DNA of 64,000 bases from Paraprevotella sp. (GTDB taxonomy: Bacteria; Bacteroidota; Bacteroidia; Bacteroidales; Bacteroidaceae): positions 140,032 through 204,031 of the forward strand of contig JAGBCQ010000008.1 in the NCBI GenBank assembly GCA_017937925.1, written 5' to 3'. Both the position numbers and the translations under genes were made by a program. Below the pieces are notes generated by a model. The model was not told the origin of the DNA. It did no database searches and saw only the letters and a list, made by a program, of their open reading frames with translations. Of the stretch, positions 20,306 through 40,764 are shown piece after piece; within the stretch, counting starts at the first letter, position 1, and each line of letters starts with the position of its first letter.

Positions 20306-21490
20306 TTAACGACGGCGACGACCACCGAACAAATCCTTGATGCCGTCTAAATCAAATCCTAAAGAGAAACGCATGGTTTGATCCAGAGGGTTGCTTTGCG
20401 CTGTTGAGAACACATAACCTGCATCCAACGAGAAAACACTCATACGGAAACCCGCTCCCACTGTCAAGTACTTTCTGTTTCCTTTATTCTCGCTCTCATG
20501 GTGATAACCGGCACGCAAAGAGAAACGATCGTTGTAGATATATTCCAGACCGACACTCCATTGAATTTCTTGCATCTCTTCCTTAAATCCGTTGGGGGCA
20601 TCACCAAAACTCTTGAAAATACCAGCAATGGGCGATATGTCATAATAATCTTTCTGCACACGGTCGGTATAATCTTGGTCGGCTTCTCCTTCGTTTTGTT
20701 TCGGATAGGTTGGTACCAAAAGTTTGTTAGCCTCTGCTGCCAATGAGAATTTATTGTATTCGTTGATTGGCACCAAGAAATTCACACCCAAACGCAAGTT
20801 GGTGGGGATAAACTCAGCATTGTCATCGCCACCGTAGGAAATCTTACTACCGATATTACTGATGTTCAAACCGATACCCATGTTCCACTCACGACTGCGC
20901 CCCATAAAATAACGGTTCCAATACAATGCAATGTCTGCAGCAAAAGCCTTTCCGTGTGTTGTCTCTTCCGAATAATCGTATGTTATATCCGAATAGATGA
21001 AACGCAAAGCAACAGCTGCGGAGAAATTCTGGCTCAACATACGGGAGTAAGCCACGTCAACTGCCAACTCATACGGACTGATAGTCATATCTGTTGCGCC
21101 GTCTAATGAACTACCTGTAGAGACCTCGCCTAACGAGAAATAGCGCATGGAAGCACTCAATGCCTGATAATCGCCTATACGGTAGAAACCGGCTACGTAT
21201 GCCAAATTGATGTCGTTGACCAACTGACGCAACCAAGGTGTATAACTGGCTGCTACTCCGGCACGCGCGATATTGAAGGGGTATTTTGCCGGATTCCAAT
21301 ATTGTGAATTGACATCTGCCTCAGTCGCCGCACCCAAGTCTCCCATCGCACCACCACGTGCATCAGGAGCTATGGATAACGAGGTCACTCCTGTCGTTAC
21401 CGGATTAAACATATTTCTCTTATCCAGTGCTTGTAATGACATCATGATGCCACACAACATACAGAACGTTAAACACAAATATCTTTTCAT
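20306..21490 (-). CDS. porV: Type IX secretion system outer-membrane protein PorV
   Basis: 394 residues: signal peptide, then NPVTTGVTSLSIAPDARGGAMGDLGAATEADVNSQYWNPAK, written here only as a landmark (SIAPDARGGAMGD core), which is the FadL/PorV-type N-terminus; the rest is an alternating beta-barrel pattern ending in a Phe/Leu-rich last strand and RRRR. PorV is the outer-membrane shuttle that receives cargo from the SprA translocon and hands it to the PorU sortase. It lies directly downstream of porU (45 bp), as in other Bacteroidetes, supporting the assignment. Confidence 0.92.
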   Translation of the reverse strand: MKRYLCLTFCMLCGIMMSLQALDKRNMFNPVTTGVTSLSIAPDARGGAMGDLGAATEADVNSQYWNPAKYPFNIARAGVAASYTPWLRQLVNDINLAYVAGFYRIGDYQALSASMRYFSLGEVSTGSSLDGATDMTISPYELAVDVAYSRMLSQNFSAAVALRFIYSDITYDYSEETTHGKAFAADIALYWNRYFMGRSREWNMGIGLNISNIGSKISYGGDDNAEFIPTNLRLGVNFLVPINEYNKFSLAAEANKLLVPTYPKQNEGEADQDYTDRVQKDYYDISPIAGIFKSFGDAPNGFKEEMQEIQWSVGLEYIYNDRFSLRAGYHHESENKGNRKYLTVGAGFRMSVFSLDAGYVFSTAQSNPLDQTMRFSLGFDLDGIKDLFGGRRRR

Positions 21491-21535
21491 ATCCTACTAT
21501 TATCTAATTACATAATAAACAAACGGCGGCGTTGC

Positions 21536-24500
21536 CTATTTATTGCGCAGTATCACAATTTTATTGGTGCGCGAAACGGCTTTGCTATCGGGTGTCGATA
21601 CGCTGACACGATAGAGATATACGCCGGTAGAGAGAGGCATTCCGGATGAAGTGGTAAGATTCCATGTTACCGGATAGATACCATCGGCTGAGGTGCCCTT
21701 CTCTGTGTGACGCCACAAATTACGCCCTGCGAAATCGAATACCTCAAGCGTAAAACTACATTCCGTACCGGGGCGGTCGTAACGCACAATGAACGTCGTC
21801 TGCTCTCGTGCCGGATTCTCAGAACAAGTCAGACTGATGAAATCGGGACTTAGTTTGCTATCTACATTGAAGTCGAACGTCACGGTCGAAGCATTGTTCA
21901 TCACGTCCCATGCCCTGAATGTCAAGGTGTGTTGTCCGTCGGGCAAAGCCGGTATGACGAACGCCAACTGACCTTTACGATAATCACCCAATGCACTCAT
22001 GTAATGGCTATTGAGTATGTAAGTCGTTGCCGGATTGTTGTCGATAATCAATTCCAAATCGTGCCCCACAGCTGTACTTGTGGTGTTGATACCACTCTCG
22101 TCTTCCAACGTCGCAACGAAATAAGGGGTCTTGTTCACCGTACCTCCCCAAACAAAATCTTCTCGGTTCAGGTATGCCGTGATTTTCGGTCCCTCCTTAT
22201 CTGCAAGTAAATCCGAACCGCTACCGCCTACCACCACATTCTCGGTGTAACCGTTCGCTTCACGTACTCGGTCGTTGTCAATTGCATAGAGTACGATTCG
22301 CCCTTTCTCACCGGAATACTTGATGTCCATTGGTATGGGGAATGAGAAACTAAAACGTCCGTTTCGTATGGAATCGCTTCCGCTGTACAACCGTTTGTCG
22401 CGAGTAAAGAAGGTAAATGCTTCGTCCGACTTACCGTCGTTGTTGAGACAAGTAATCAAACTTTCACTGTCATAGACTGTTGCTGTCAACACACCGGTAT
22501 AATCGGTCAATTTATTGCCATTCTCGTCAGCAATATAACCTTCTATCTTTGCCAAATCGCCCGCCTTAAAGTCAACAGTGGTACTTGCATCGCTAATTGA
22601 CTGCCCATTCACGTTCTCAATCACCGCCTTGTACTTTGGCATTCCTAATGTCAGAGCCGGGTCGCCCAACAGTACATAATGCAGTTTGTTTTCCGAACGG
22701 TCTTTATCGGGATTGGACTGACTTGTATTCAAAAGAACGGACTTGGCGAGGCGTAAAGCGTCACCAATCGTATTACGTCTGCCATTAGCATCTTCATCCA
22801 ACAAATAACGTGAGAAATGTCGGTTCATCATACTGTTTTGTGTGGCATACACCGTTCTGGTTGTTCCTACGAATGCCACCGCTGCACCTGTCGGGTGCAA
22901 TACAGCTTTCTCACCGATGTTATCCTCGTTCATATCGAATGGTGCGACATCGCAAGCCGCGGTAAACCATAATGGTACTTTACTTGAACTGAAATGGTCG
23001 AAGTCCGACAACAATATCGCTTGCTCATGCGACAGACTTCGCGGATTGCCATGACCGGTATAATTCATTACCAGGCATCCCTCGTCCATTTGTTTCTTGA
23101 CATCCGCCACGACTCCCGGATAAGTGTTACTCGTTGTGGTTGACATCCGCTTATAAGCATCCCAATGGATGCGATTGACTTGCATCTCGGGATGTTTGGT
23201 TTCCACTAAGGTCGCTATTTCCTCAGCCATCTCCAGATGCTGATTGTTATCGCCATCATCGCCTAAAACGCATATCACGTTTTTCCATGAACCGGCATGT
23301 TTATTCTGCATATAATCAATCGTCTTATCCACCATGATTTTGGCTGCCGTTTCCGTTGTTACAGGGAAACGTCCAATGCCCAAATCTGTTTTATTCTCCT
23401 TGAGCGAACCGCCTTCGCCATCGTCCAACAGACCGAAATAGTCCTCCATGACGTAACTGGTGGTATGACTTAATGAGTTTTCTGCTTCATAGCAAAGTAA
23501 ATAATCGTCGGGATTCAATCCTCTTGTGGCGGATGACAGCATACGATTGTCCCATACGCCATCGCCGAACAACAAGAGATAGCGAGGTGTATCCGCATCG
23601 TTGGTAGCACGGTCGTACAACATTTTCATCATTCGACGATAAGCAGTAGCATCGGGCGTACCGGATGAAAATTCATTGTAAACTTGATCGGCACGCACTA
23701 TATGCACTCTCATGCTGTCCATACTGCGGTGTGCCTCCGCCAAACGGTGGGCTTGAGCGTAGAGTTTTCCACTAGTCGGAATAATAATGACCATGTCAGC
23801 TGGTGTTAGCGCATGAAGATCTTGGTTAGCTACCTCTCCGATATATGTAGGCGAAGGGTATTCCTCATTCACATCGACTGCCACATATTCGCATGACGGG
23901 TCAGCAACCGGAACTTGATAAGTATTGCCGGACAATGTGCCTTTCATTTCTGCCATCGGCTCTCCGCGACGTCCCAAACGCCACACTTTCACTCCCGTTC
24001 GCCCATTCGTATTGATAACGAAACGACCTGCTTGCGACTGCGCATCCCGCATATACAAGTAGGGTTTTGTCATCTTGAGCTGGCGTGTGTAGTTCAGTTC
24101 AATATATCCTAATCTGGCATCTACTCCTGCCGTAGATGTCACGTTGACTTCCGTTCCTGCACTGCCTGTTCGCAACGTTTGGACGGTAAACGTCGCGGTG
24201 CTTTCCATAGCAGCGTAATACGAACTGGGGACTGCGCTGATGCTTGTTCTCCGTTGCTGTTCTCCGTTGATGGTGGTTAGGAATGAAGAAGAAGAGGAGG
24301 AAGAAGCAGTAAAAGACACCGTCACTTTACCTCCCTCAGTCGCGACAGGGTCAATTGTTTCCAACACATAGGTCTTGGAATTTTGCTGAGCATAGTTGTG
24401 CGCTTCATAGAGTTTACGTCCACTGGTGTACCATGCAAATTCTTCTTTTAAATACAAAGAAGTAGCAGGTGTCGTGGTAATGTCTCTCAGTGGTGTAACG

Positions 24501-25306
24501 CCGGCATTGCCTTCTGCAATCGTCAGTGGTGAGTCGCCTTCGGTAAGGAAGTAACAAGCATGACGAGCATAGTTATTGACTCTGTGCGTTGTTCTTGAAT
24601 TGTTCCTTAATTTGCTCCATGAAATAAGTCCCTTACCATAGAACAACAGTCCTTTGCCATCACGATAGAGAGGAACTTCCTCCAAATCGTCAAAGTCCTC
24701 GTCTGCATCAATCTTCTCATCTTGAATATGACCGCCATAACCATACAACTTAACACGCGATGCATCATTGAATCCCATGCGTTGCAAGTCAGCATGAGTC
24801 AAACGATATACACCATTGCTCGTGATGCCTATCTTAACCCATCGGCCTTGTGCCAACACCGAATGATCAGCATAACGTCCGGCGGAATTCGTGGCGTAAG
24901 TTGCCACACGTTTGACCACTTGTCCCCGACGTGCTATCTTCATTTTAAAACTGAGCAGTTTATAATAAGTCCCGGCTCGTTTCACAATAGGTATAAAGGA
25001 AACGTCCAAGTAACCCTTCTTTCGAGATACGGTCACATTAGCATTCACTTGCGGTTCGTCGGGTAAAGAGTCTGCCCAATTAGCCACATCTTTGGCTTCT
25101 TTTGTCGTCAGTTGCTTGTACTCCGGATAATCCAAAGTCACCTCATAACGATAGTCATTGTAGTTCTCCTCCAAAGGTATCACCTCGTTATAATAGGTCG
25201 GAAAACTATCGGCTTTCAGTATCTTCCAATCGACATAAGTGAATTCCTGTGCCACGACGGTCATCGCAGCGCACAGAAACATCAATATGGCTATTCTAAA
25301 TCTCAT
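21536..25306 (-). CDS. porU: Type IX secretion system sortase PorU
   Basis: 1256 residues with a signal peptide (ILMFLCAAMTVVAQ). A gingipain-like C25 peptidase domain occupies roughly residues 500-880. The catalytic His lies in MNYTGHGNPRSLSHEQ (~residue 748) and the Cys in WFTAACDVAPFD (~785), both visible. The C-terminus carries a CTD-like domain ending GVYLYRVSVST ... KIVILRNK. PorU cleaves the C-terminal sorting domain of T9SS cargo and attaches A-LPS or another anchor. The stop of the FAA hydrolase gene lies 3 bp upstream, so it is cotranscribed. Confidence 0.93.
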   Translation of the reverse strand: MRFRIAILMFLCAAMTVVAQEFTYVDWKILKADSFPTYYNEVIPLEENYNDYRYEVTLDYPEYKQLTTKEAKDVANWADSLPDEPQVNANVTVSRKKGYLDVSFIPIVKRAGTYYKLLSFKMKIARRGQVVKRVATYATNSAGRYADHSVLAQGRWVKIGITSNGVYRLTHADLQRMGFNDASRVKLYGYGGHIQDEKIDADEDFDDLEEVPLYRDGKGLLFYGKGLISWSKLRNNSRTTHRVNNYARHACYFLTEGDSPLTIAEGNAGVTPLRDITTTPATSLYLKEEFAWYTSGRKLYEAHNYAQQNSKTYVLETIDPVATEGGKVTVSFTASSSSSSSFLTTINGEQQRRTSISAVPSSYYAAMESTATFTVQTLRTGSAGTEVNVTSTAGVDARLGYIELNYTRQLKMTKPYLYMRDAQSQAGRFVINTNGRTGVKVWRLGRRGEPMAEMKGTLSGNTYQVPVADPSCEYVAVDVNEEYPSPTYIGEVANQDLHALTPADMVIIIPTSGKLYAQAHRLAEAHRSMDSMRVHIVRADQVYNEFSSGTPDATAYRRMMKMLYDRATNDADTPRYLLLFGDGVWDNRMLSSATRGLNPDDYLLCYEAENSLSHTTSYVMEDYFGLLDDGEGGSLKENKTDLGIGRFPVTTETAAKIMVDKTIDYMQNKHAGSWKNVICVLGDDGDNNQHLEMAEEIATLVETKHPEMQVNRIHWDAYKRMSTTTSNTYPGVVADVKKQMDEGCLVMNYTGHGNPRSLSHEQAILLSDFDHFSSSKVPLWFTAACDVAPFDMNEDNIGEKAVLHPTGAAVAFVGTTRTVYATQNSMMNRHFSRYLLDEDANGRRNTIGDALRLAKSVLLNTSQSNPDKDRSENKLHYVLLGDPALTLGMPKYKAVIENVNGQSISDASTTVDFKAGDLAKIEGYIADENGNKLTDYTGVLTATVYDSESLITCLNNDGKSDEAFTFFTRDKRLYSGSDSIRNGRFSFSFPIPMDIKYSGEKGRIVLYAIDNDRVREANGYTENVVVGGSGSDLLADKEGPKITAYLNREDFVWGGTVNKTPYFVATLEDESGINTTSTAVGHDLELIIDNNPATTYILNSHYMSALGDYRKGQLAFVIPALPDGQHTLTFRAWDVMNNASTVTFDFNVDSKLSPDFISLTCSENPAREQTTFIVRYDRPGTECSFTLEVFDFAGRNLWRHTEKGTSADGIYPVTWNLTTSSGMPLSTGVYLYRVSVSTPDSKAVSRTNKIVILRNK

Positions 25307-25309
25307 TCT

Positions 25310-25927
25310 TTATCTTACATTAAAATCCAAAACCTTACGGTCCTGTATATATCCTTGCAGGTGTTGCCCTATCTCTGCAGTACCTACCCCTACCGGTGTT
25401 CCTGTGAACAACAAATCGCCAATCTTCAACGTGAAGAAACGACTGACGTACGCTATAATGTCATCCACCGAATGTATCATATCGCCCGAGTAACCTTGTT
25501 GTACGGTTTCTCCGTTGATGTCCAAACGGAATGGTATCTCTTGAATGGCAGGCAACTCCTCCTTCGCTATAAAATCGCCTATCACCGCCGAACCGTCGAA
25601 CCCTTTGCAAAGTTCCCAAGGCAGACCGTCCTTCCTGAACTTCCGCTGCATATCGCGTGCAGTAAAGTCTATTCCCACCGTCACAGCATCATAATAACGA
25701 TGCGCAAAGCGCGGAGCGATGTTCTTGCCTAACCGACAGATGCGCACCACCAATTCCGTTTCATAGTCACACTGCTGCGTGAAGTCGGGGATGAAAAATG
25801 GTTTACCGTCCTTCAACAACGCAGAATCCGGTTTGGTAAAGATTACAGGCTCTTCCGGTTTATATAACGTTCCATCCAACTCTTTATTGTGCTCGGCATA
25901 ATTCATGCCTACTGCAATTATCTTCAT
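25310..25927 (-). CDS. Fumarylacetoacetate hydrolase family protein
   Basis: 205 residues with FAH-fold motifs: the N-terminal MKIIAVGMNYAEHNKEL, the metal-binding CDYETELVVRI (E-x-E) and the C-terminal GDLLFTGTPVGVG. In this family such short proteins are oxaloacetate decarboxylases, acylpyruvases or related enzymes; the substrate cannot be decided from sequence. It heads the operon ahead of porU, with a promoter -7 box 28 bp upstream. Confidence 0.9.
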   Translation of the reverse strand: MKIIAVGMNYAEHNKELDGTLYKPEEPVIFTKPDSALLKDGKPFFIPDFTQQCDYETELVVRICRLGKNIAPRFAHRYYDAVTVGIDFTARDMQRKFRKDGLPWELCKGFDGSAVIGDFIAKEELPAIQEIPFRLDINGETVQQGYSGDMIHSVDDIIAYVSRFFTLKIGDLLFTGTPVGVGTAEIGQHLQGYIQDRKVLDFNVR

Positions 25928-26266: not shown

Positions 26267-26812
26267 TCACTTCACCACTGCGCGTACGGAACATCCATAC
26301 ATGCGACGATTGTAGTGTGCACCATAATATTCTTCACCGAAGTCAAGATACCACGCATCATTAGGATTCTTACCACCCAATGAATTTGCCCAATAGTAAC
26401 CATATTTAGAAGCATCTTCACCCGTATTACATCCGGCAGCAGGAAGGAAGATACTATTACCGTTAGGACCTGTAACTTTTCGCCCAAATACATCGTTTTG
26501 GGAAACCCAAGCCCATGAGCAGTTATCTTTAAGTTCTTTTATTTCCATTTCAGTAGGCATACGCCATTTACTTCCCATATTTACCGTTGCAGCATCATCT
26601 TCTGGGTCAAGGATGGTTTTTCCATCATGAAATTCATTGAAGCCATATGTTTGGTTAGTACAATATTTAGTTAGAGAAAAATTGTCTTCATTACACCATT
26701 TATAGTTATTCCAACCATATTCTTCCTTTGGAGCAATTTCGCCCCAAGCAATAATTTCCTTTGCTTTAGCTACATCCTCAGCAGTTTTACGCCCTTGATA
26801 GGAAAAGTACAA
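26267..26812 (-). pseudogene. FISUMP-type (Fib_succ_major) protein, 5'-truncated
   Basis: The readable part matches the C-terminal FISUMP/C-type-lectin-like domain: MGSKWRMPTEMEIKEL, VTGPNGNSIFLPAAGC, GYYWANSL and the final YGCSVRAV. Intact relatives have a signal peptide and extra N-terminal sequence; here the ORF opens at a TTG (26812) only 3 bp after the NYN stop, with no signal sequence. Residues 10-22 (TAEDVAKAKEIIA) are encoded by a 39-bp exact copy of tsf, directly joined to the FISUMP-like WGEIAPKEEYGWNNYKWC. It therefore looks like a rearranged, decapitated gene. Translation by coupling to the NYN gene is possible but would give a cytoplasmic product. Confidence 0.75.
26747..26785 (-). 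repeat. 39-bp exact copy of an internal tsf segment
   Basis: Identical base for base to 33082-33120 inside the EF-Ts gene, same orientation and same reading frame (TAEDVAKAKEIIA; tsf residues ~248-260). Identity ends abruptly on both sides. The two copies form direct repeats 6.3 kb apart that bracket most of the accessory island. Confidence 0.95.
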
Positions 26813-26815
26813 AAC

Positions 26816-27430
26816 TTATTTGCGACAAAGTTTCTCTACCATTTCAGGCTGTTGCTGAAATTTTTCACCCAAATCAATATGCAGGGTAGCTTCGTCGCGT
26901 AAAAGACGAGATGTTGCTGATTTTTCTCCGAAATCACCTGTCAGTAGAATCACATTTATATGTAATGCTTTCAGCTTTTTGATAAGCATTTCATGATCGG
27001 CATCACCTGTAATAAGCACAACGTAATTGAATTGGCGAATTGTGGCCAATTCATAGGCCTCCAATGCGTACCAAACATCTATTCCCTTTTCTATAATATT
27101 ACCATCTATTTCACGCAAATGCTTATAATGAAAAATGACATCATTCTCTATAAGTGAATCTTCAAATCTGCGTTCCGCAAAGAGGAGTTTTTTTACATTG
27201 GCTTCCGATGCCCGAAAGCGTCCTCTGAAATAGTGACTCTCAATCACTTGACTGTATGATTTTTCGGTGTTGCACAAATCGGCTACTGTAGAACGTATAT
27301 AATGGATCAGTTTATTGATATCCAAATGCATTCCACTCGTTTCATACAATTGTTCGTCCACTTTGGCGTAATAGCCACCGTCAATAAACAAGCCTATTGA
27401 TTTTACCAATTTATTTGTCATTTTTATCAT
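26816..27430 (-). CDS. NYN domain protein (LabA/DUF88-like, PIN-fold nuclease family)
   Basis: 204 residues (or 201 from the ATG at 27421). The NYN pattern of acidic residues is intact: IGLFIDGGYYAK (D at ~17), IEKGIDVWYALEAYELA (D at ~118) and VVLITGDADHEMLIKKL (D at ~142 and 144). NYN proteins are PIN-like, metal-dependent, often RNases, so RNA cleavage is a reasonable expectation but not shown. The start lies 1 bp from the stop of the triple AAA+ gene, which implies tight coupling and a shared function. The segment RGRFRASEANVKKLLFAERRF between the first two motifs is basic. Confidence 0.85.
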   Translation of the reverse strand: MIKMTNKLVKSIGLFIDGGYYAKVDEQLYETSGMHLDINKLIHYIRSTVADLCNTEKSYSQVIESHYFRGRFRASEANVKKLLFAERRFEDSLIENDVIFHYKHLREIDGNIIEKGIDVWYALEAYELATIRQFNYVVLITGDADHEMLIKKLKALHINVILLTGDFGEKSATSRLLRDEATLHIDLGEKFQQQPEMVEKLCRK

Positions 27431-27431
27431 T

Positions 27432-30400
27432 TTATGAATTAAAACCTATTTTCCTCGGTTGCTGCCAATTGTAGCCTGCAACATCTTCTAACAAAACTCT
27501 ATTGTGCGGAGATGATTTATCGCGACTGGCTCGTAAAATAACTTGTTCGTATATCGTACGGGCAAGATGCTTCATAGTACGCGCATTTGCAAATGAGAGA
27601 GATCTATTGGAACACAATAAATCTATATATTCGCGTATTTTAAATTCTGCTTCGCGCGTAAATTTAATTTTTCGTTTATTTAAAAGTTGACACAATATCT
27701 GATACAATTCGTCCGACGTATAATCATCGAAGAAAAATGTATGATCAAAGTCATAAATGCCATTTATTGCCAATGAATTAGCGATTGTCTGACGAGGAGA
27801 GTTGCACTCCGCAATTACTAAAGCTCCTTGCCCACCTATTTCGGCTACTAATGAGGTTAATTTTATACGCAATTGTTCACTGGTTAATCTATATTCATGC
27901 ATATTGCGAAATTCAGGAGCATCTCCATCAATAAAGAGCAAACCATGTTGTGAAAGTTTCATTGCCTGACTCAATACCTGATCACATTGGTATTCAGAGA
28001 CATTGAATATCTGTTCACCACGAACTTCAACTATATTACCCTTATCTAAAAGATTCATGGCTTTTAGTATTTCAGCAAGAATTTTGGCTACAACACTTTT
28101 CCCTGTACCAGTATTGCCTACAAAATTCCATTTGAGTAAGCCCTTGCCAACAAATGTTTCTTCTTTGGAATTGAGATAACGTGCAATATCTACAAAATTA
28201 TGTATCGCTCGTTTAACACTAACTTGCCCTACTAAATTATCTAGTTTTTTTAGTGCTTCATCTATTGCTTTTTCATCAAAACACCCACGTTCAATACGTG
28301 ATACTTCTTCTTTAGTTATAGGAATATCTTCGGCTATAATCGTTTTTAGCTGTCGCTTTGTGGGTACATTTTCTATCGTTGATAGGCGAGTTGCCATACG
28401 TGAGAGTACCTCGGTAGAAAAAAGACGTATAACAAAACGTGCATTACCAAATGAAGACCGTTTGCGCAATACTTCTCGTTTGATAATGGCTTTCATCAAC
28501 ACTTCCGCTTTCTTTGTAAAACTATAATTATTGTCAGCGGCATACCGCAATACTATTTTGTGTAATTCTTCAACCGAGTAATCTTCAAAATGGAATTTAT
28601 ATGGGAACCGAGAAGGTAATCCATCGTTCATTTTTAACAGAAGTTCCATTTCTTTTGGATAACCTGCAAGGATAACGATCATATCTATTTTATCGTTTGA
28701 AAGAGTTGTAAGTAATGATTCAATGACAATCTTTCCGTAATCATTTTCTCCTTCTTTAGAATAAAGTTGATATGCTTCATCAATAAATAGAATATTTCCT
28801 TTGGCACGATTAAGTATTGACTTCATTTTTTGCTCAGTTTCTCCTATATGCGAACCGACCAAATCCTTTTTTTCGACTCGCACAACATCTCCTCTAGAAA
28901 GGAGTCCCATAGAAGCAAAAATTTCTCCTAAAAAATCGGCCACTGTCGTTTTTCCTGTACCAGGATTGCCGGTAAAAATCATGTGTAAAGGAGGCATCTG
29001 CGTATGTAATCCTTGTTTCATACGCATGTTGGCTAACCTAACTACATTAAGATGTTGATATAAATTGTGCTTTAGATTTGACAAACCAACCATTTGATTT
29101 AAACCTACCATTCCCCTTGACTCTGTCCCTTCTTTACGTAAACTAGGAACATCTTCTATTTCAATAGTCTGCAGTTGTACCTTTGTAGGATTATTGATAT
29201 AACTTATTCGATGAGCCATTTTGGGGATTATGGTCTTTTCCATTAAATTATTAATGTAACGGGCATTACCGAAGTCTTTATCTCGTGAGCCATAGTCGCG
29301 AGCCACTATTGAATAAAGGTGCTTACGAACTTCTGCCGACATCTTGTATTTATTGCGCTTACAATAGAAATCTGCAATCTGCATCAGCTCGTCCAGGTTA
29401 TAATCATCAAAGAAAAACCTTTCATTTATACGCGATTCAAGACCGGGATTGGCCTTCATCATCACTCCTATCTCATCGGGATAACCAGCTAAAACCAACA
29501 TCCAATCTCTACGTTTTTCATCCGAAAGAGCAGTGAGAAGACTTTCCAATACACGTTTGCCGGGATCACGAGGGTCGTCAGGAACGTATAGATTGTATGC
29601 TTCATCAATAAACAAAACACCGCCTTGCGCACTTTGAATCGCCTGTTCAGTGGCACGCAATTCGCTATCATAATAACGCCCAACAAGATTCCTGCGTTCT
29701 AGCTTTACTACGTGTCCTTGGCTTAATAGACCCAAATCTTTATAAATTTCACCAATAATCTTTGCAACTGTTGTCTTTCCTGTACCGGGACTACCAATAA
29801 AACAAGCATGAAGTGGTGCGTTAGTGGTAGGTAATCCCATGTCCTTACGTAATTGCGAAAGCATAGATAGGCGACTTATAGAATGAATCTTTTCTTTTAC
29901 CGTTTTTAATCCGATTAGTTGGTCTAATCTATCCATTGCCTTTTCGCTTGTATTATCTCTTAATGCGTTATCTTTTAACATAGAGACAATCTGAGCGACA
30001 TCTGCTTCACCTTCTAAATTATGTGTTCCAATATTAAAAGAAGCTATCATAACAGGTCTATCAAATACCCTAAACTCCACCTTGTATCTTCCTACATCCC
30101 ATCTGACTCCTTTTACAGGATTAAAACTATAAAATGCAATCTGTACTTTTTCACTTTCTATTTCGTAGGTTGAGGCATTATTTCTAATTATAAGTTTTCC
30201 ATTTTGATCATATAAACAAAAACACAATTCATTTATAATATGACTCAATTTAACTCTTGAATTAAAATAACAATGAGCATTAATCTGCAAAAAGGCATCT
30301 TCCTTAAATTCCACATATCCTGTTACAGTATCGCTACTTAATGGACTACTATCTCGAAATGCAGGAAAGAATACCATGCGATTAATGCTCAACAAATCAA

Positions 30401-31199
30401 ATACGGAGTTGGCACACAATAGTTTTTTACTCGTATTATACAATACTTTTTTCGTATCCGAATTTAGTATAGATATTTGTATTTCGTCTTCTAATGAATG
30501 ACGCGTTGGAATAAGGTCTTCTGCATCAAAAGTCACTTCTACATCACCTTCATTACTATCAAGTTGTTCTTTTGTAACTTCCTTGCGTAAAATTGTATGG
30601 CAACGATAATTTTGTACAACCACTTCTATGTCATGCTTATAATACACTGATTCCCAATAGAAAATTCTCAAATGAATGAAGCGGTCATTCATAAACAAAG
30701 GGTACGGTATATATCTGGCTACGAAATCTTTTGGCTTGGGAGTAGGATTCTCATTAATAGCCATTTCTACATTCGCAATTTTACAATCATCTGAATTATT
30801 GTCATCTAAACCTGAGCCATCGTCATCTAAATCTGAATTATCACCTATTTCACTTTCATCATCCGAAGAGTCGTCTTCTTCGTCAAATGAATCTTTAATA
30901 AACTCATCAAGCAAGTCTTCATAATTCTTTTCTTCTGAACAATCCTTTTCGTTATTAGTTTTTTTATCTTGAATGGAGGGTGAGGTCTCATCATTTCTAA
31001 CACCATTAAACCTAAAAAAGTAAAGAGCCCACTCAACAAAACGTTGGCAATGTTCAGTCAATTCAAACTCCTCTAACTCCTCTAAAATTTCTTCGTCCGA
31101 AGAACCTTCTTTCACTTTTGATTCAACCCATTTGAAAAGTTCTAAATCATTCTCATCAGAAAAGGTAAATGTTATTTTTGAGTCATCACTTTTATTCAT
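27432..31199 (-). CDS. Triple CbxX/CfqX-type AAA+ ATPase protein
   Basis: 1255 residues, no signal peptide. Residues 1-65: a charged, mostly helical N-terminal segment. 90-140: very acidic linker (DEEDDSSDDESE). ~160-395: beta-rich domain I do not recognise. Then three AAA+ modules: Walker A GSPGTGKT (469-476) with B LFIDEAY (529-535); GNPGTGKT (744-751) with LFIDEAY (804-810); GNTGTGKS (1028-1035) with LFIDGDAPE, where Gly replaces the catalytic Glu (1092), so module 3 probably binds but does not hydrolyse ATP. CbxX-type AAA+ proteins include Rubisco activases, SpoVK and T7SS EccA. It is AT-rich relative to the flanks and coupled to the NYN gene. Function unknown. Confidence 0.85.
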   Translation of the reverse strand: MNKSDDSKITFTFSDENDLELFKWVESKVKEGSSDEEILEELEEFELTEHCQRFVEWALYFFRFNGVRNDETSPSIQDKKTNNEKDCSEEKNYEDLLDEFIKDSFDEEDDSSDDESEIGDNSDLDDDGSGLDDNNSDDCKIANVEMAINENPTPKPKDFVARYIPYPLFMNDRFIHLRIFYWESVYYKHDIEVVVQNYRCHTILRKEVTKEQLDSNEGDVEVTFDAEDLIPTRHSLEDEIQISILNSDTKKVLYNTSKKLLCANSVFDLLSINRMVFFPAFRDSSPLSSDTVTGYVEFKEDAFLQINAHCYFNSRVKLSHIINELCFCLYDQNGKLIIRNNASTYEIESEKVQIAFYSFNPVKGVRWDVGRYKVEFRVFDRPVMIASFNIGTHNLEGEADVAQIVSMLKDNALRDNTSEKAMDRLDQLIGLKTVKEKIHSISRLSMLSQLRKDMGLPTTNAPLHACFIGSPGTGKTTVAKIIGEIYKDLGLLSQGHVVKLERRNLVGRYYDSELRATEQAIQSAQGGVLFIDEAYNLYVPDDPRDPGKRVLESLLTALSDEKRRDWMLVLAGYPDEIGVMMKANPGLESRINERFFFDDYNLDELMQIADFYCKRNKYKMSAEVRKHLYSIVARDYGSRDKDFGNARYINNLMEKTIIPKMAHRISYINNPTKVQLQTIEIEDVPSLRKEGTESRGMVGLNQMVGLSNLKHNLYQHLNVVRLANMRMKQGLHTQMPPLHMIFTGNPGTGKTTVADFLGEIFASMGLLSRGDVVRVEKKDLVGSHIGETEQKMKSILNRAKGNILFIDEAYQLYSKEGENDYGKIVIESLLTTLSNDKIDMIVILAGYPKEMELLLKMNDGLPSRFPYKFHFEDYSVEELHKIVLRYAADNNYSFTKKAEVLMKAIIKREVLRKRSSFGNARFVIRLFSTEVLSRMATRLSTIENVPTKRQLKTIIAEDIPITKEEVSRIERGCFDEKAIDEALKKLDNLVGQVSVKRAIHNFVDIARYLNSKEETFVGKGLLKWNFVGNTGTGKSVVAKILAEILKAMNLLDKGNIVEVRGEQIFNVSEYQCDQVLSQAMKLSQHGLLFIDGDAPEFRNMHEYRLTSEQLRIKLTSLVAEIGGQGALVIAECNSPRQTIANSLAINGIYDFDHTFFFDDYTSDELYQILCQLLNKRKIKFTREAEFKIREYIDLLCSNRSLSFANARTMKHLARTIYEQVILRASRDKSSPHNRVLLEDVAGYNWQQPRKIGFNS

Positions 31200-31231
31200 A
31201 AAGATAATTGTTTTATAACAAATTTTCGAAA

Positions 31232-32173
31232 TTAGATTCCCTCAACATATTTTAATAGGCCATATCCGACATTGGTCTTAGCTCCGACACCATACGTTTC
31301 AAGGATTTGTTTAAATAAATTCTTCTTGGCGGCTTTTGACATAATAACTTCGCCTGTTTTATCTTTTGTATCTTTTAACCTAAAACGAAATGCAAGTTGA
31401 ACGCCCGATGCGATTTTGATAAAAGGAATTGGAACTGGCTCTGCGAAAGGATCATCATGTTTCTTACCTCCATGAGGAGCCAAAGCATCCTTATCAAGAA
31501 TCTTACCTGATTCATTGGGTTTGGAGATTACTGCATCAAAAAGCTTTGCTTTCTTCTTGTTATATATTACAAGCCGTTCATACGGCCACAATGCATCTGC
31601 GATGGAAGAAAATGGAATATCTTTATTTACCTGAACAAAGGTTGCGAAATCTGTATTCTCGCTATACATATAAAATTCTTTTGCCTTCTCCTCTTGTTCT
31701 TCGGTTACACCTTGCGCGGCACGGTCTCTTTTCCTAATCTCATACATCATGCACTTTTTATCTTCTTCAGTCATTTCCGGATAAGTTTTATCCAAATATT
31801 CTTTCATGCCAGGATAATACCCCTTATCATTCGCCACAATAAGTTTTTCTTCATCGGTAAGTTCATGTTGAATTATTTTTGCTATCTGCTCAAGTGCTGA
31901 CGGCATATTCTGCAGGTCATTATGATGATCTATTCTGATATAATTCTTAGGCACGGTTATGTCTGCTCTAAGTTCAATACCATAAATTTTATAATCATCC
32001 GAGCTATACTGCACAAGTTCCTCTGCGTATTTACTCAACAACGCATCATCCCACTTCAAATCCTTATCCACCATAACATAATCCGATGATTTCTTAAGGA
32101 TATCCTTAATGGTTTTCATTTCCAAATCACCTCCGCCAAGTAAAAACACTTTCTTCTTTCTTTGTGCATGCAT
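31232..32173 (-). CDS. Chimeric ORF: DHH-like N-terminal domain joined to a Cmr6-like RAMP C-terminus
   Basis: 313 residues, uninterrupted. Residues ~8-190 look like a DHH-type phosphoesterase: IRIDHHNDLQ (DHH at ~82-84), LIVANDKGYYPGM (~108) and IRKRDRAAQGVTEEQEEKA (~147-165); this part is a moderate-confidence reading. From ~205 the sequence becomes Cmr6-like: FDAVISKPNESGKILDKD, then DPFAEPVPIPFIKIASGVQ and the C-terminal G-rich loop YGVGAKTNVGYGLLKY (~293-308). Only the C-terminal ~110 residues of Cmr6 are present, so the ORF probably arose by an in-frame deletion between two CRISPR-associated genes. It precedes the triple AAA+ gene by 32 bp and may be cotranscribed. Confidence 0.65.
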   Translation of the reverse strand: MHAQRKKKVFLLGGGDLEMKTIKDILKKSSDYVMVDKDLKWDDALLSKYAEELVQYSSDDYKIYGIELRADITVPKNYIRIDHHNDLQNMPSALEQIAKIIQHELTDEEKLIVANDKGYYPGMKEYLDKTYPEMTEEDKKCMMYEIRKRDRAAQGVTEEQEEKAKEFYMYSENTDFATFVQVNKDIPFSSIADALWPYERLVIYNKKKAKLFDAVISKPNESGKILDKDALAPHGGKKHDDPFAEPVPIPFIKIASGVQLAFRFRLKDTKDKTGEVIMSKAAKKNLFKQILETYGVGAKTNVGYGLLKYVEGI

Positions 32174-32198
32174 AATTTTGTATTTTTATATCGTTTCA

Positions 32199-32206
32199 CA
32201 AAAATA
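32199..32206 (-). promoter_or_regulatory. Promoter -7 element ahead of the DHH/Cmr6 ORF and AAA+/NYN operon
   Basis: Reverse strand TATTTTTG, 25 bp before the ATG at 32173. On the forward strand a second box, TAATTTTG (32173-32180), precedes the RT remnant. The two overlap regions suggest a divergent promoter. Confidence 0.4.
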
Positions 32207-32216
32207 ACTTAAATTT

Positions 32217-32408
32217 ATGAACCGTAAAATATTTGAGAACCTAATTTCAGAAAAAACAATCATGGATGCTTGGAAGCACGTTAAACAAAAAAGTGCAACA
32301 GGTGGTATTGATGGTATTAGTATTGAAATGTTTGAATCTGATTTAGGAAATAATATCCTAGAAATCGTAAAAGAAATTAGTTCTGGTAAATGGGTACCTT
32401 CTTTCTGA
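32217..32408 (+). pseudogene. N-terminal fragment of a reverse transcriptase (RT-Cas1 type)
   Basis: 63 residues starting MNRKIFENLISEKTIMDAWK, with the RT0/RT1-like run KSATGGIDGISIEMFE and ISSGKWVP. The frame closes at TGA 32406-32408, far short of a functional RT (no palm motifs such as YxDD). In the next frame, directly downstream, lies Cas1 sequence, so this is the 5' end of an RT-Cas1 adaptation gene from which the whole catalytic RT part has been deleted with a frameshift. Confidence 0.75.
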
Positions 32409-32625
32409 CGATGGAGTAATATTCGATAAAAGAATAGGGCATGGAGCAACAGACCTTGTTAACTGTATGCTGAATTATGGATATACAATTTTATACTCAC
32501 GAGTGTCTCAAGCTTTACTAGCTGCGCAACTTAACCCTTATGATAGTGTTATACATGTACGTCAAAGTGGTAAACCAACCCTTTCTTATGGGGTCAGTAG
32601 AAATTTATATGCTTACCCACACTAA
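32398..32625 (+). pseudogene. cas1: C-terminal fragment of Cas1, frameshifted relative to the RT fragment
   Basis: The frame starting at 32398 reads DDGVIFDKRIGHGATDLVNC, then MLNYGYTILYSRVSQALLAA, then QLNPYDSVIHVRQSGKPTLS: the Cas1 C-terminal helical core with N-x-x-LNYGY and the His of xxIHVxQxxKP. Similarity stops at LSYG, exactly where a 12-bp inverted repeat begins, and a stop follows at 32623. No intact cas1, cas2 or array is present, so the adaptation gene is dead. Confidence 0.75.
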
Positions 32626-32640
32626 ATTTCTACTAACCCG
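32590..32640. repeat. Inverted repeat at the Cas1/RAMP breakpoint
   Basis: AGTAGAAATTTA (32596-32607) and its exact complement (32623-32634) with a 15-nt loop; the pairing extends outward to about 18 bp with two mismatches (GGGT / ACCC). It sits between the end of Cas1 similarity and the start of the RAMP fragment, so it may be the scar of a deletion or of a small mobile element. Confidence 0.55.
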
Positions 32641-32717
32641 AGTTCTGTGGTATAGGGAAAGGAACAAGTAGAGGTTTTGGAATCATATACACCTCACACG
32701 CACGCAATAAAAGATAA
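32637..32717 (+). pseudogene. C-terminal fragment of a RAMP-family protein (Cas6/Cmr-like)
   Basis: A 26-codon frame ending at TAA 32715-32717 reads PEFCGIGKGTSRGFGIIYTS. The GIGKGTSRGFG run matches the glycine-rich loop near the C-terminus of RAMP proteins (Cas6, Cmr1, Cmr4 and others). It is too short to name the subfamily and has no start of its own. Confidence 0.45.
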
Positions 32718-32812
32718 CCAAAAAATTGTAATGTAACTTGTTTGTTAGTAACAAGGTTATTACAAGGCAATCGTATTCAACTGTAAAAATCACTGATGGC
32801 TATCGCAGGGAC

Positions 32813-32871: not shown

Positions 32872-33861
32872 TTACTCAGCGCGCAAAGTGAAACGTTTGA
32901 ATGCTACTACCTTAAGGTCAGCATCGATTTCTTTCAATACTTCGCGTACAGTCTTCTTAGCTTCCATGATGTCCTCTTGGTTCAACAAGCAAACCTCTTT
33001 CAAGAACTTAGCCAAACGGCCTTTTGCGATGTTTTGAATCATTGCTTCAGGTAAGTTTGCTGCTTTCTCAGCAGATACTGTAGCAATAATTTCCTTTGCT
33101 TTAGCTACATCCTCAGCAGTGATCCAACCCTTAGCCATGTTGCTCTCCATGTGATCCTCAGAGTCAACGTGTGCAGGATTGATACCGGCTTTCTTCAAAG
33201 CAGCCTCAACTGCCTTTTGTACTTGCTCTGCCTTAGTCTTCTCAACAGCAACAGCGATTTCTGCATTCTTAACTTCCTCAGAAACACCATCTTCGTCAAT
33301 AGCGATAGGGCTCATAGCAGCCACTTGCATTGCGATGCGCTTACCAGCAGCCTCTTCCACTTTGTTCAAACCAACGATGGTACAAAGTTGATTTTTACCT
33401 TGGTGGTTGTAAACTGTTGTATATTCAGCTTCGATAGTCATGTAACCATCCAACTCCATCTTCTCGCCTGTGATACCAGAACGGTCAACAACAGCATCTT
33501 GTACTGTTCCATTACCCATAGGCAATGCCTTAACCTCTTCCAAAGTAGCACATCTCTTTGCTACAGCCAAGTCAAGAATTTCTTGAGTCAACTTAACAAA
33601 GTCAGCATTGTTAGCAACGAAGTCAGTCTCGCACTTCAATGCGATAGTTGCAGCGAAGTTGCCATCAGCCTTTGCCAAAACACAACCTTCAGAAGCCTCG
33701 CGGTCTGAACGCTTTGCAGCAACAGCTTGACCTTTCTTGCGGATGATTTCCATTGCCTTGTCGATGTCATTGCCAGACTCTTCCAAAGCCTTCTTGCAAT
33801 CCATCATACCAGCTCCTGACATTTGACGGAGCTTGGTGATATCAGCCATTGTAACAGCCAT
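32872..33861 (-). CDS. tsf: Elongation factor Ts
   Basis: Guanine-nucleotide exchange factor for EF-Tu. 329 residues, normal for Bacteroidales. The N-terminal UBA-like signature ITKLRQMSGAGMMDCKKALE (~8-27) and the TDFVANN motif (~83-89) are clear. It follows rpsB by 34 bp, the standard rpsB-tsf pair. Residues ~248-260 are encoded by a 39-bp stretch that recurs exactly at 26747-26785 in the FISUMP remnant; tsf itself appears intact. Confidence 0.97.
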   Translation of the reverse strand: MAVTMADITKLRQMSGAGMMDCKKALEESGNDIDKAMEIIRKKGQAVAAKRSDREASEGCVLAKADGNFAATIALKCETDFVANNADFVKLTQEILDLAVAKRCATLEEVKALPMGNGTVQDAVVDRSGITGEKMELDGYMTIEAEYTTVYNHQGKNQLCTIVGLNKVEEAAGKRIAMQVAAMSPIAIDEDGVSEEVKNAEIAVAVEKTKAEQVQKAVEAALKKAGINPAHVDSEDHMESNMAKGWITAEDVAKAKEIIATVSAEKAANLPEAMIQNIAKGRLAKFLKEVCLLNQEDIMEAKKTVREVLKEIDADLKVVAFKRFTLRAE

Positions 33862-40735: not shown

Positions 40736-40764
40736 CCTATTTTCTTATTTTGCTTCTTTTTAAG

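Follow-up and report, generated by a model that had tools for sequence, protein, structure and literature searches.

A 64,000-nucleotide stretch of the gut bacterium Paraprevotella sp. (assembly GCA_017937925.1, contig JAGBCQ010000008.1; hereafter the window) carries two consecutive genes, one for a triple AAA+ ATPase and one for a NYN-domain RNase (hereafter AAA and NYN). Our preferred reading, to which we give a probability of roughly 0.42, is that the two genes make up an RNA-processing module tied to the type III CRISPR systems of Bacteroidales and recruited to them, in which an ATP-driven remodeller would open protein–RNA complexes for NYN. The RNase half is already known; as far as the open-access literature reaches, the ATPase half is new in a type III and NYN role, and no paper naming an AAA partner of NYN was found there. 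The original prediction, made from the sequence alone, had correctly placed the pair, its strand and the single base pair between the AAA stop and the NYN start (10 nt if NYN begins at its second in-frame ATG, codon 4). It was also right about the three AAA+ modules in a single chain (Walker A motifs at residues 469, 744 and 1028), the acidic linker (residues ~90–145, by eye) and the beta-rich region, now modelled as two tandem sandwiches. The pair and its parts are as follows.

26816–27430, minus strand: NYN-domain RNase gene, 204 amino acids (Pfam NYN, E 2e-11)
27432–31199, minus strand: triple AAA+ ATPase gene, CbbX/SpoVK type, 1255 amino acids (Pfam AAA, E 2.7e-36, three stretches)
30417–30680, minus strand: first beta-sandwich, immunoglobulin (Ig)-like, residues ~174–261 (AlphaFold model, Foldseek)
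30027–30392, minus strand: second beta-sandwich, Ig-like, residues ~270–391 (AlphaFold model, Foldseek, VIA-align)
29100–29924, minus strand: AAA module 1, residues 426–700, with canonical Walker A and B and arginine finger
28245–29099, minus strand: AAA module 2, residues 701–985, canonical
27435–28244, minus strand: AAA module 3, predicted pseudo-ATPase, residues 986–1255, with Walker A kept, Walker B reading FIDGDA and no GLxSR

The coupling of the two genes extends beyond the window, both as co-occurrence and as adjacency above chance. Defining the close AAA family by at least 41% identity in module 3, or by clear pieces, we found it in 4 of 294 other genomes of an order sample, in 7 of 268 genomes of the family of locus L122 (one, G331, only as the remnant at L111; a generic eighth match, in G354, was not counted) and in 2 of 200 genomes of the window genome's own family (one, G696, in pieces). 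NYN was present in 9 of these 13 genomes versus 11 of 749 without AAA. Per sample the fractions were 2/4, 6/7 and 1/2 (Fisher p 0.004, 1e-10 and 0.05), and the pooled p was 5e-13, with phylogeny ignored and a few genomes shared between the pooled samples; when the near-identical NYNs of L122–L124 are counted once, p in L122's family is 1e-7, phylogeny again ignored. The two genes lie no more than 20 kb apart in 6 of the 13. From the other side, a scan of 84,980 species returned 169 NYN relatives, the best 80 of which were kept (five being contigs of the order sample), and in seven of these best 80 loci (L108, L109, L111, L118, L120, L122 and L123) the distance from NYN to AAA is within 8 kb, against 0.63 expected even if every 2.5-Mb genome had one AAA. 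L108 keeps the window's gene order at 66% identity for AAA and 84% for NYN, and at L111 (7398–7982) an AAA frame of only 194 amino acids, with an in-frame internal deletion and both ends kept, directly precedes an intact NYN. The NYN tree joins the window to L108 (Shimodaira–Hasegawa-like approximate likelihood ratio test 92), then to L109 and L111 (93), neither node being starred, and AAA linkage requires at least five changes on it. A different CbbX-type AAA of 642–652 amino acids lies within about 3 kb of NYN on the opposite strand at L115, L130 and L314 (G712, on the same contig as L130); these shorter proteins at L115 and L130 were excluded from the neighbour count.

The two genes might instead be neighbours by chance, hitch-hiking along with a CRISPR relic in a single block that moved horizontally. 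The order sample favours this view: of 295 genomes, 8 besides the window's carry a close NYN, none with an AAA in the 10–20 kb around it, and none of the four closest AAAs has a NYN neighbour. It is already disfavoured by the order retained at L108 despite the sequence divergence and by the co-occurrence and adjacency statistics, and we regard it as very improbable.

Fold and active site place the window RNase in the CRISPR-associated NYN family found in Bacteroides type III-B. Chi and White (2024; PMC11346440, cited throughout from the accessible part of the paper) described the B. fragilis NYN, whose type III-B locus also encodes Cas6, NrN and CorA, as a Mn-dependent, non-specific single-stranded RNA endonuclease with active-site residues D13, D118 and D143, and proposed that it trims CRISPR RNA (crRNA), which bound Cas6 partly shields after cleavage. 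The equivalent residues of the window protein, D17, D118 and D143, are unvarying in alignments of 15 and 18 sequences, as the original prediction had expected, and D145 is also invariant; the NYN of the Bacteroides III-B locus L117 has exactly the B. fragilis numbering. The AlphaFold model (predicted local distance difference test, pLDDT, 86.7) has 2QIP as its best Foldseek match (E 1.7e-7), the structure also named for the B. fragilis enzyme, and the protein shares 54–59% identity with NYNs of type III loci. NrN and Cmr6 parts adjoin the window gene too. Unlike the B. fragilis gene, it has an AAA+ gene directly upstream and its CRISPR core is gone, and its relatives are found with III-A-type and III-D genes too, as well as outside CRISPR. 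The statement that no named system has this composition is not supported as regards the RNase, which belongs to a published family (PMC11346440). More distant NYN relatives carry an extra C-terminal domain, of cold-shock type by eye, and such broader relatives are common. An origin of NYN in phages, plasmids or viral contigs was rejected, no NYN relatives being found in those collections, which were searched with NYN.

Type III genes recur beside both partners. They lie by NYN in seven of the best 80 loci (L113, L114, L116, L117, L122, L132 and L137), with cas6 alone near NYN at L118, and near 6 of 16 close AAA loci: the window, L118 (cas6), L120, L122/L334, L313 and L324. L120 has a three-repeat array whose 23-nt core is common to the III-B loci L209 and L213 and to L122/L334. 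At L122/L334 we found homologues of Csm3, Csm5, Csx1-HEPN and Csx20, Cas6, arrays and a weak CorA-like match; Cas10 was not identified there. The III-D locus of Phocaeicola barnesiae (L313) holds Cas10d, Cas5, Cas7, Csx19, Csx20, CARF-TM, Cas6 and an array, with NYN 4 bp ahead of cas10 and AAA on the far side (four of its proteins are equal to those of L132), and L324 holds Csx1-HEPN, Csx20, CARF-TM, RT-Cas1 and arrays, with AAA in pieces. With the query set used, no type III part was seen near the other ten loci (L081–L084, L108, L109, L111, L123, L264 and L265), including the wider flanks taken for G329, G330, G331, G335 and G345. A distinct triple-AAA family thus sits in or by III-A-type, III-B-relic and III-D loci, and also alone.

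Because its close relatives accompany NYN beyond chance, several of them beside CRISPR, AAA may be an undescribed helper of type III immunity. A fuller version, in which the triple-AAA protein would be an ancillary of III-A, III-B and III-D systems, driven by ATP and with a pseudo-ATPase built in, that strips crRNA intermediates or spent effectors of their proteins and hands the RNA to NYN, and in which the pair would also act as a self-standing immune module outliving the CRISPR core, seems to us doubtful. Alternatively, the two proteins could be separate type III helpers without mutual action, NYN trimming crRNA and AAA remodelling effectors or the spacer-acquisition machinery. This is how one might read L324, where AAA pieces accompany CRISPR genes in a genome (G696) without a NYN match, L113 and L116, where NYN accompanies CRISPR with no AAA nearby, and L313, where the two genes occupy opposite sides of the locus. 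We nevertheless consider it quite unlikely, given the close AAA–NYN linkage in L108, L109, L111 and L123, where CRISPR parts were not found, and the genome-level co-occurrence even where the genes are unlinked (G021, G209 and G345).

The ATPase itself is of a recognizable type. All three modules match the CbbX/SpoVK/EccA AAA+ family, with an AAA core and AAA_lid_6, and Pfam and NCBIfam assign the chain to the CbbX/SpoVK type. SpoVK (TIGR02881) scores 524.4 bits against a curated 422.95, but this adds up three modules; CbbX (Rubisco activase, TIGR02880; 453.6 bits, likewise summed) and EccA (type VII secretion, TIGR03922; 373.4 bits) stay under their curated 459.25 and 466.65. PADLOC-DB 2.0.0 (2023) gave only partial matches for AAA (DolB, TRIP13, IetA and others) and none for NYN. 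With CbbX, SpoVK and EccA (PDB 3SYK/3SYL, 3ZUH and 9LUR) the protein shares AAA_lid_6 and, in modules 1 and 2, the Walker motifs (FIDEAY) and the GLxSR arginine finger; it differs in its three modules, the third a putative pseudo-ATPase, its two Ig-like N-domains and its acidic linker. Module 3 retains Walker A (GNTGTGKS), has FIDGDA in place of FIDEAY and lacks GLxSR. Its Walker B glutamate is absent from all 14 close chains (window, L081–L084, L108, L109, L118, L120, L122, L123, L264, L265 and L313), replaced by glycine in 13 and by asparagine in L109, and seven more distant chains (L087 and L318–L323) have methionine or leucine there. Mean pairwise identity among nine full-length members is 49% for module 3 against 53% and 55% for modules 1 and 2. 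The shared loss and this near-equal conservation rule out decay: of the originally described degraded Walker B, the alteration stands and the degradation does not, since relatives are altered alike, and module 3 is best described as a predicted, conserved pseudo-ATPase. The seven distant proteins, triple or double AAA chains of 587–962 amino acids in the available sequence, end in a module with FLDMD or FLDLD, and no NYN match was found in their genomes as searched; L085 and L086 (G106 and G290), initially taken as relatives, were left out, as they do not have these motifs.

Between the window and L108, the proportion of non-synonymous differences (pN) is 0.084 for NYN, 0.096, 0.116 and 0.140 for modules 3, 2 and 1, 0.356 for the beta region and 0.441 for the N-terminus, so that the N-domains diverge fast; pN and the synonymous proportion (pS) are given rather than dN/dS because synonymous sites are saturated (pS about 0.93). 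These comparisons show that the AAA/NYN family is under constraint, and not that the window copy remains in use. The original prediction had looked to the N-terminal part for a sensor domain. The AlphaFold model of the beta region (pLDDT 76) gave two tandem sandwiches, and a recognizable sensor in residues 150–425 was rejected: Foldseek and VIA-align returned only generic Ig- and complement-type sandwiches, Pfam had no match, and the PDB sequence search had a single one (E 0.95).

The pair lies in an inserted block. The broken CRISPR locus beside it, first noted from the sequence, is real; its type III-B remains are an NrN–Cmr6 fusion and two RT-Cas1 pieces.

31232–32173, minus strand: NrN-like DHH domain with C-terminal Cmr6 fusion, type III-B relic, in frame
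31526–32158, minus strand: NrN-like DHH part of the fusion (PADLOC DHH_CorA, E 2e-44)
31247–31603, minus strand: C-terminal half of Cmr6 in the fusion
32229–32399, plus strand: RT-Cas1 relic, N-terminal reverse transcriptase (RT) piece, matching residues 6–62 of the L116 protein
32398–32595, plus strand: RT-Cas1 relic, Cas1 piece, residues 603–668, in a different frame from the RT piece
26786–32806, no strand: inserted block between tsf and a Lcl-domain gene, ends approximate
26747–26785, minus strand: 39-nt exact copy of an internal tsf piece at the left block end (other copy 33082–33120)
26267–26812, minus strand: 5'-truncated Lcl-domain open reading frame at the junction

The fusion retains an IDHH motif. 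In the related loci L317 and L212, nrn and cmr6 are separated by some 7 kb that hold corA, cmr1, cas10, cmr3, cmr4 and cmr5, so a single deletion would explain the window arrangement. The same kind of NrN-type DHH domain and a Cmr6 piece are found in the CorA/NrN SAM-AMP (S-adenosylmethionine-AMP) type III-B system (Chi et al. 2023; PMC10600005, accessible part); unlike that system, the window holds relics only, and neither CorA nor Cas10b was matched in its genome (G000), which is 78.6% complete. A script search of the window found no exact CRISPR array. In G301, the nearest available relative (92% identity in EF-Ts), an intact Lcl-domain gene comes after tsf, and nucleotide similarity to the window stops at 32806; in the window, Lcl homology starts right after the 39-nt tsf copy and the 5' part is missing. 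None of 17 other same-genus genomes has a NYN match, and 3 of the 17 match AAA, only through partial generic hits of 250–280 residues. Together with the G301 layout, this identifies the block as a local insertion. The 39-nt direct repeat may be a scar of recombination or may mark a join made in assembly. A homologue of 25310–25927 lies within 1.5 kb after tsf in 6 of 11 same-genus tsf loci, and the spot downstream of tsf may be an insertion hotspot; another CbbX-type AAA gene lies within about 2 kb of tsf in the same-genus locus L272 (G304). Promoter and terminator scans stayed at chance level, no tandem repeats were found in 25–34 kb, the only Rfam match within 20–40 kb was the L13-Bacteroidia ribosomal leader (RF03127, 35748–35818), and a 76-nt exact direct repeat occurs at 40764 and 40873 (109 nt from start to start). 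Two open reading frames at 20306–25306, judged by eye, presumably correspond to the type IX secretion proteins PorV and PorU.

Four of the AAA–NYN loci (L108, L109, L111 and L123) have no CRISPR part that we could find, and here a stand-alone antiviral RNase system has to be weighed, in which the AAA N-domains would sense infection and set NYN free to attack RNA of the cell or the phage, CRISPR nearness reflecting shared defence islands. The pN of 0.36–0.44 in the N-domains against 0.10–0.14 in the AAA modules, and an insertion site that varies within the genus, fit such a system, as do the genes that follow NYN in L109 (8627–12668) and L118 (6978–14925): a protein of 675–716 amino acids without a Pfam match, then RyR-domain genes, joined in L118 by a TIR gene. 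The position of NYN beside type III operons, as the first gene ahead of cas10 in L313, counts against it, as does the statement that NYN is apparently not a direct player in antiviral defence (PMC11346440), and no PADLOC family is matched over its full length by AAA or NYN; we judge it unlikely. The large protein of L109 and L118 starts with what looks by eye like a membrane-spanning segment, and it recurs near NYN in L124 (9985–12963) with a gene that is TIR-like by eye (no PADLOC match); the large protein, RyR and TIR genes are possibly a separate defence module. As for the defence or toxin profile first proposed, the setting is indeed often defence-like (type III CRISPR, RyR, TIR), and the toxin part gives way to the published proposal of crRNA trimming (PMC11346440).

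A housekeeping RNA-processing pair without immune function is a further candidate. Up to 24 of the best 80 NYN loci have a gene of one M20-peptidase family nearby, with muramidase and GlmS-like genes, in a Muribaculaceae-rich clade (37 of 89 tree rows) that has neither AAA nor a CRISPR locus; and the broader NYN relatives with the extra C-terminal domain are common. Yet the M20-peptidase-type loci are without AAA, and the pair is patchy, sits in an insertion and is missing or matched only in part among same-genus genomes, which makes this explanation very improbable. Housekeeping loci were the setting that the original prediction took to speak against it: the large Muribaculaceae-rich clade is indeed fixed in housekeeping-like settings, and this applies to NYN and not to the pair.

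Several observations weigh against our preferred module. NYN also occurs in fixed non-CRISPR settings; the window NYN has only relics nearby and its nearest relative, L108, no CRISPR part. Gene order and strand vary (NYN comes first in L120, and the two genes are on opposite strands in L122 and L123). Several NYN-bearing III-B loci (L113, L114, L116, L117 and L137) show no AAA in the available flanks, and close AAAs were not found in the genomes of three of them (G624, G685 and G777 for L113, L114 and L116). The two genes are unlinked in G021 (~100 kb apart), G209 and G345 (other contigs), and NYN was not matched in 4 of the 13 AAA genomes (G122, G088, G395 and G696). Eight genomes with distant triple-AAA proteins and a matching third module (G211, G629, G710, G776, G655, G672, G326 and G635) yielded no match to NYN under the limits applied; counting them, NYN is present in 9 of 21, and the NYN link is therefore a property of the close AAA family. 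Twelve regions around CorA or Cas10b matches (two of them weak CorA matches) hold neither gene, with NYN elsewhere in the genome in G209 and G344, and Cas10b was not matched in seven AAA–NYN genomes or G000, in a search that did not cover III-A and III-D Cas10. Finally, the B. fragilis NYN shows activity with no ATPase present (PMC11346440), and the originally proposed nucleoside triphosphate-driven switch on the RNase is conjecture; a word search of that paper found neither 'AAA' nor 'ATPase'. Since NYN acts by itself in vitro and some NYN–CRISPR loci have no AAA, the latter is not needed for NYN catalysis as such.

How an RNA-processing module of this kind might work can nevertheless be outlined. 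CbbX-type rings remodel protein complexes. The AAA+ protein would form a CbbX-like ring in which modules 1 and 2 hydrolyse ATP and module 3 binds nucleotide without hydrolysis, acting as a regulator or dock; target choice would fall to the N-domains, which diverge fast. The ring would pull apart protein–RNA complexes, for example Cas6 on cut crRNA or stalled ribonucleoproteins, and the non-specific NYN would then trim the exposed RNA. In the window, the CRISPR core would have been deleted while the AAA–NYN pair kept open frames. A SpoVK-family AAA+ protein also occurs in a predicted RNA-targeting defence setting in the type III-A CoCoNuT loci (PMC11090510, accessible part), as here. Unlike the window AAA, the CoCoNuT SpoVK is described as p97/CDC48-like and lies by VWA and glycine-zipper genes, and the word NYN is absent from the main text of that paper.

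The trimming of crRNA 3' ends in Bacteroidales type III systems, and access to the Cas6-shielded intermediate, are questions discussed in the accessible part of PMC11346440, and a recurrent ATPase partner provides a concrete candidate for opening that intermediate. Phocaeicola barnesiae DSM 18169 combines III-D genes, NYN and AAA in one locus, and the window represents a case of an RNase pair that stays open-framed after loss of the neighbouring CRISPR core.

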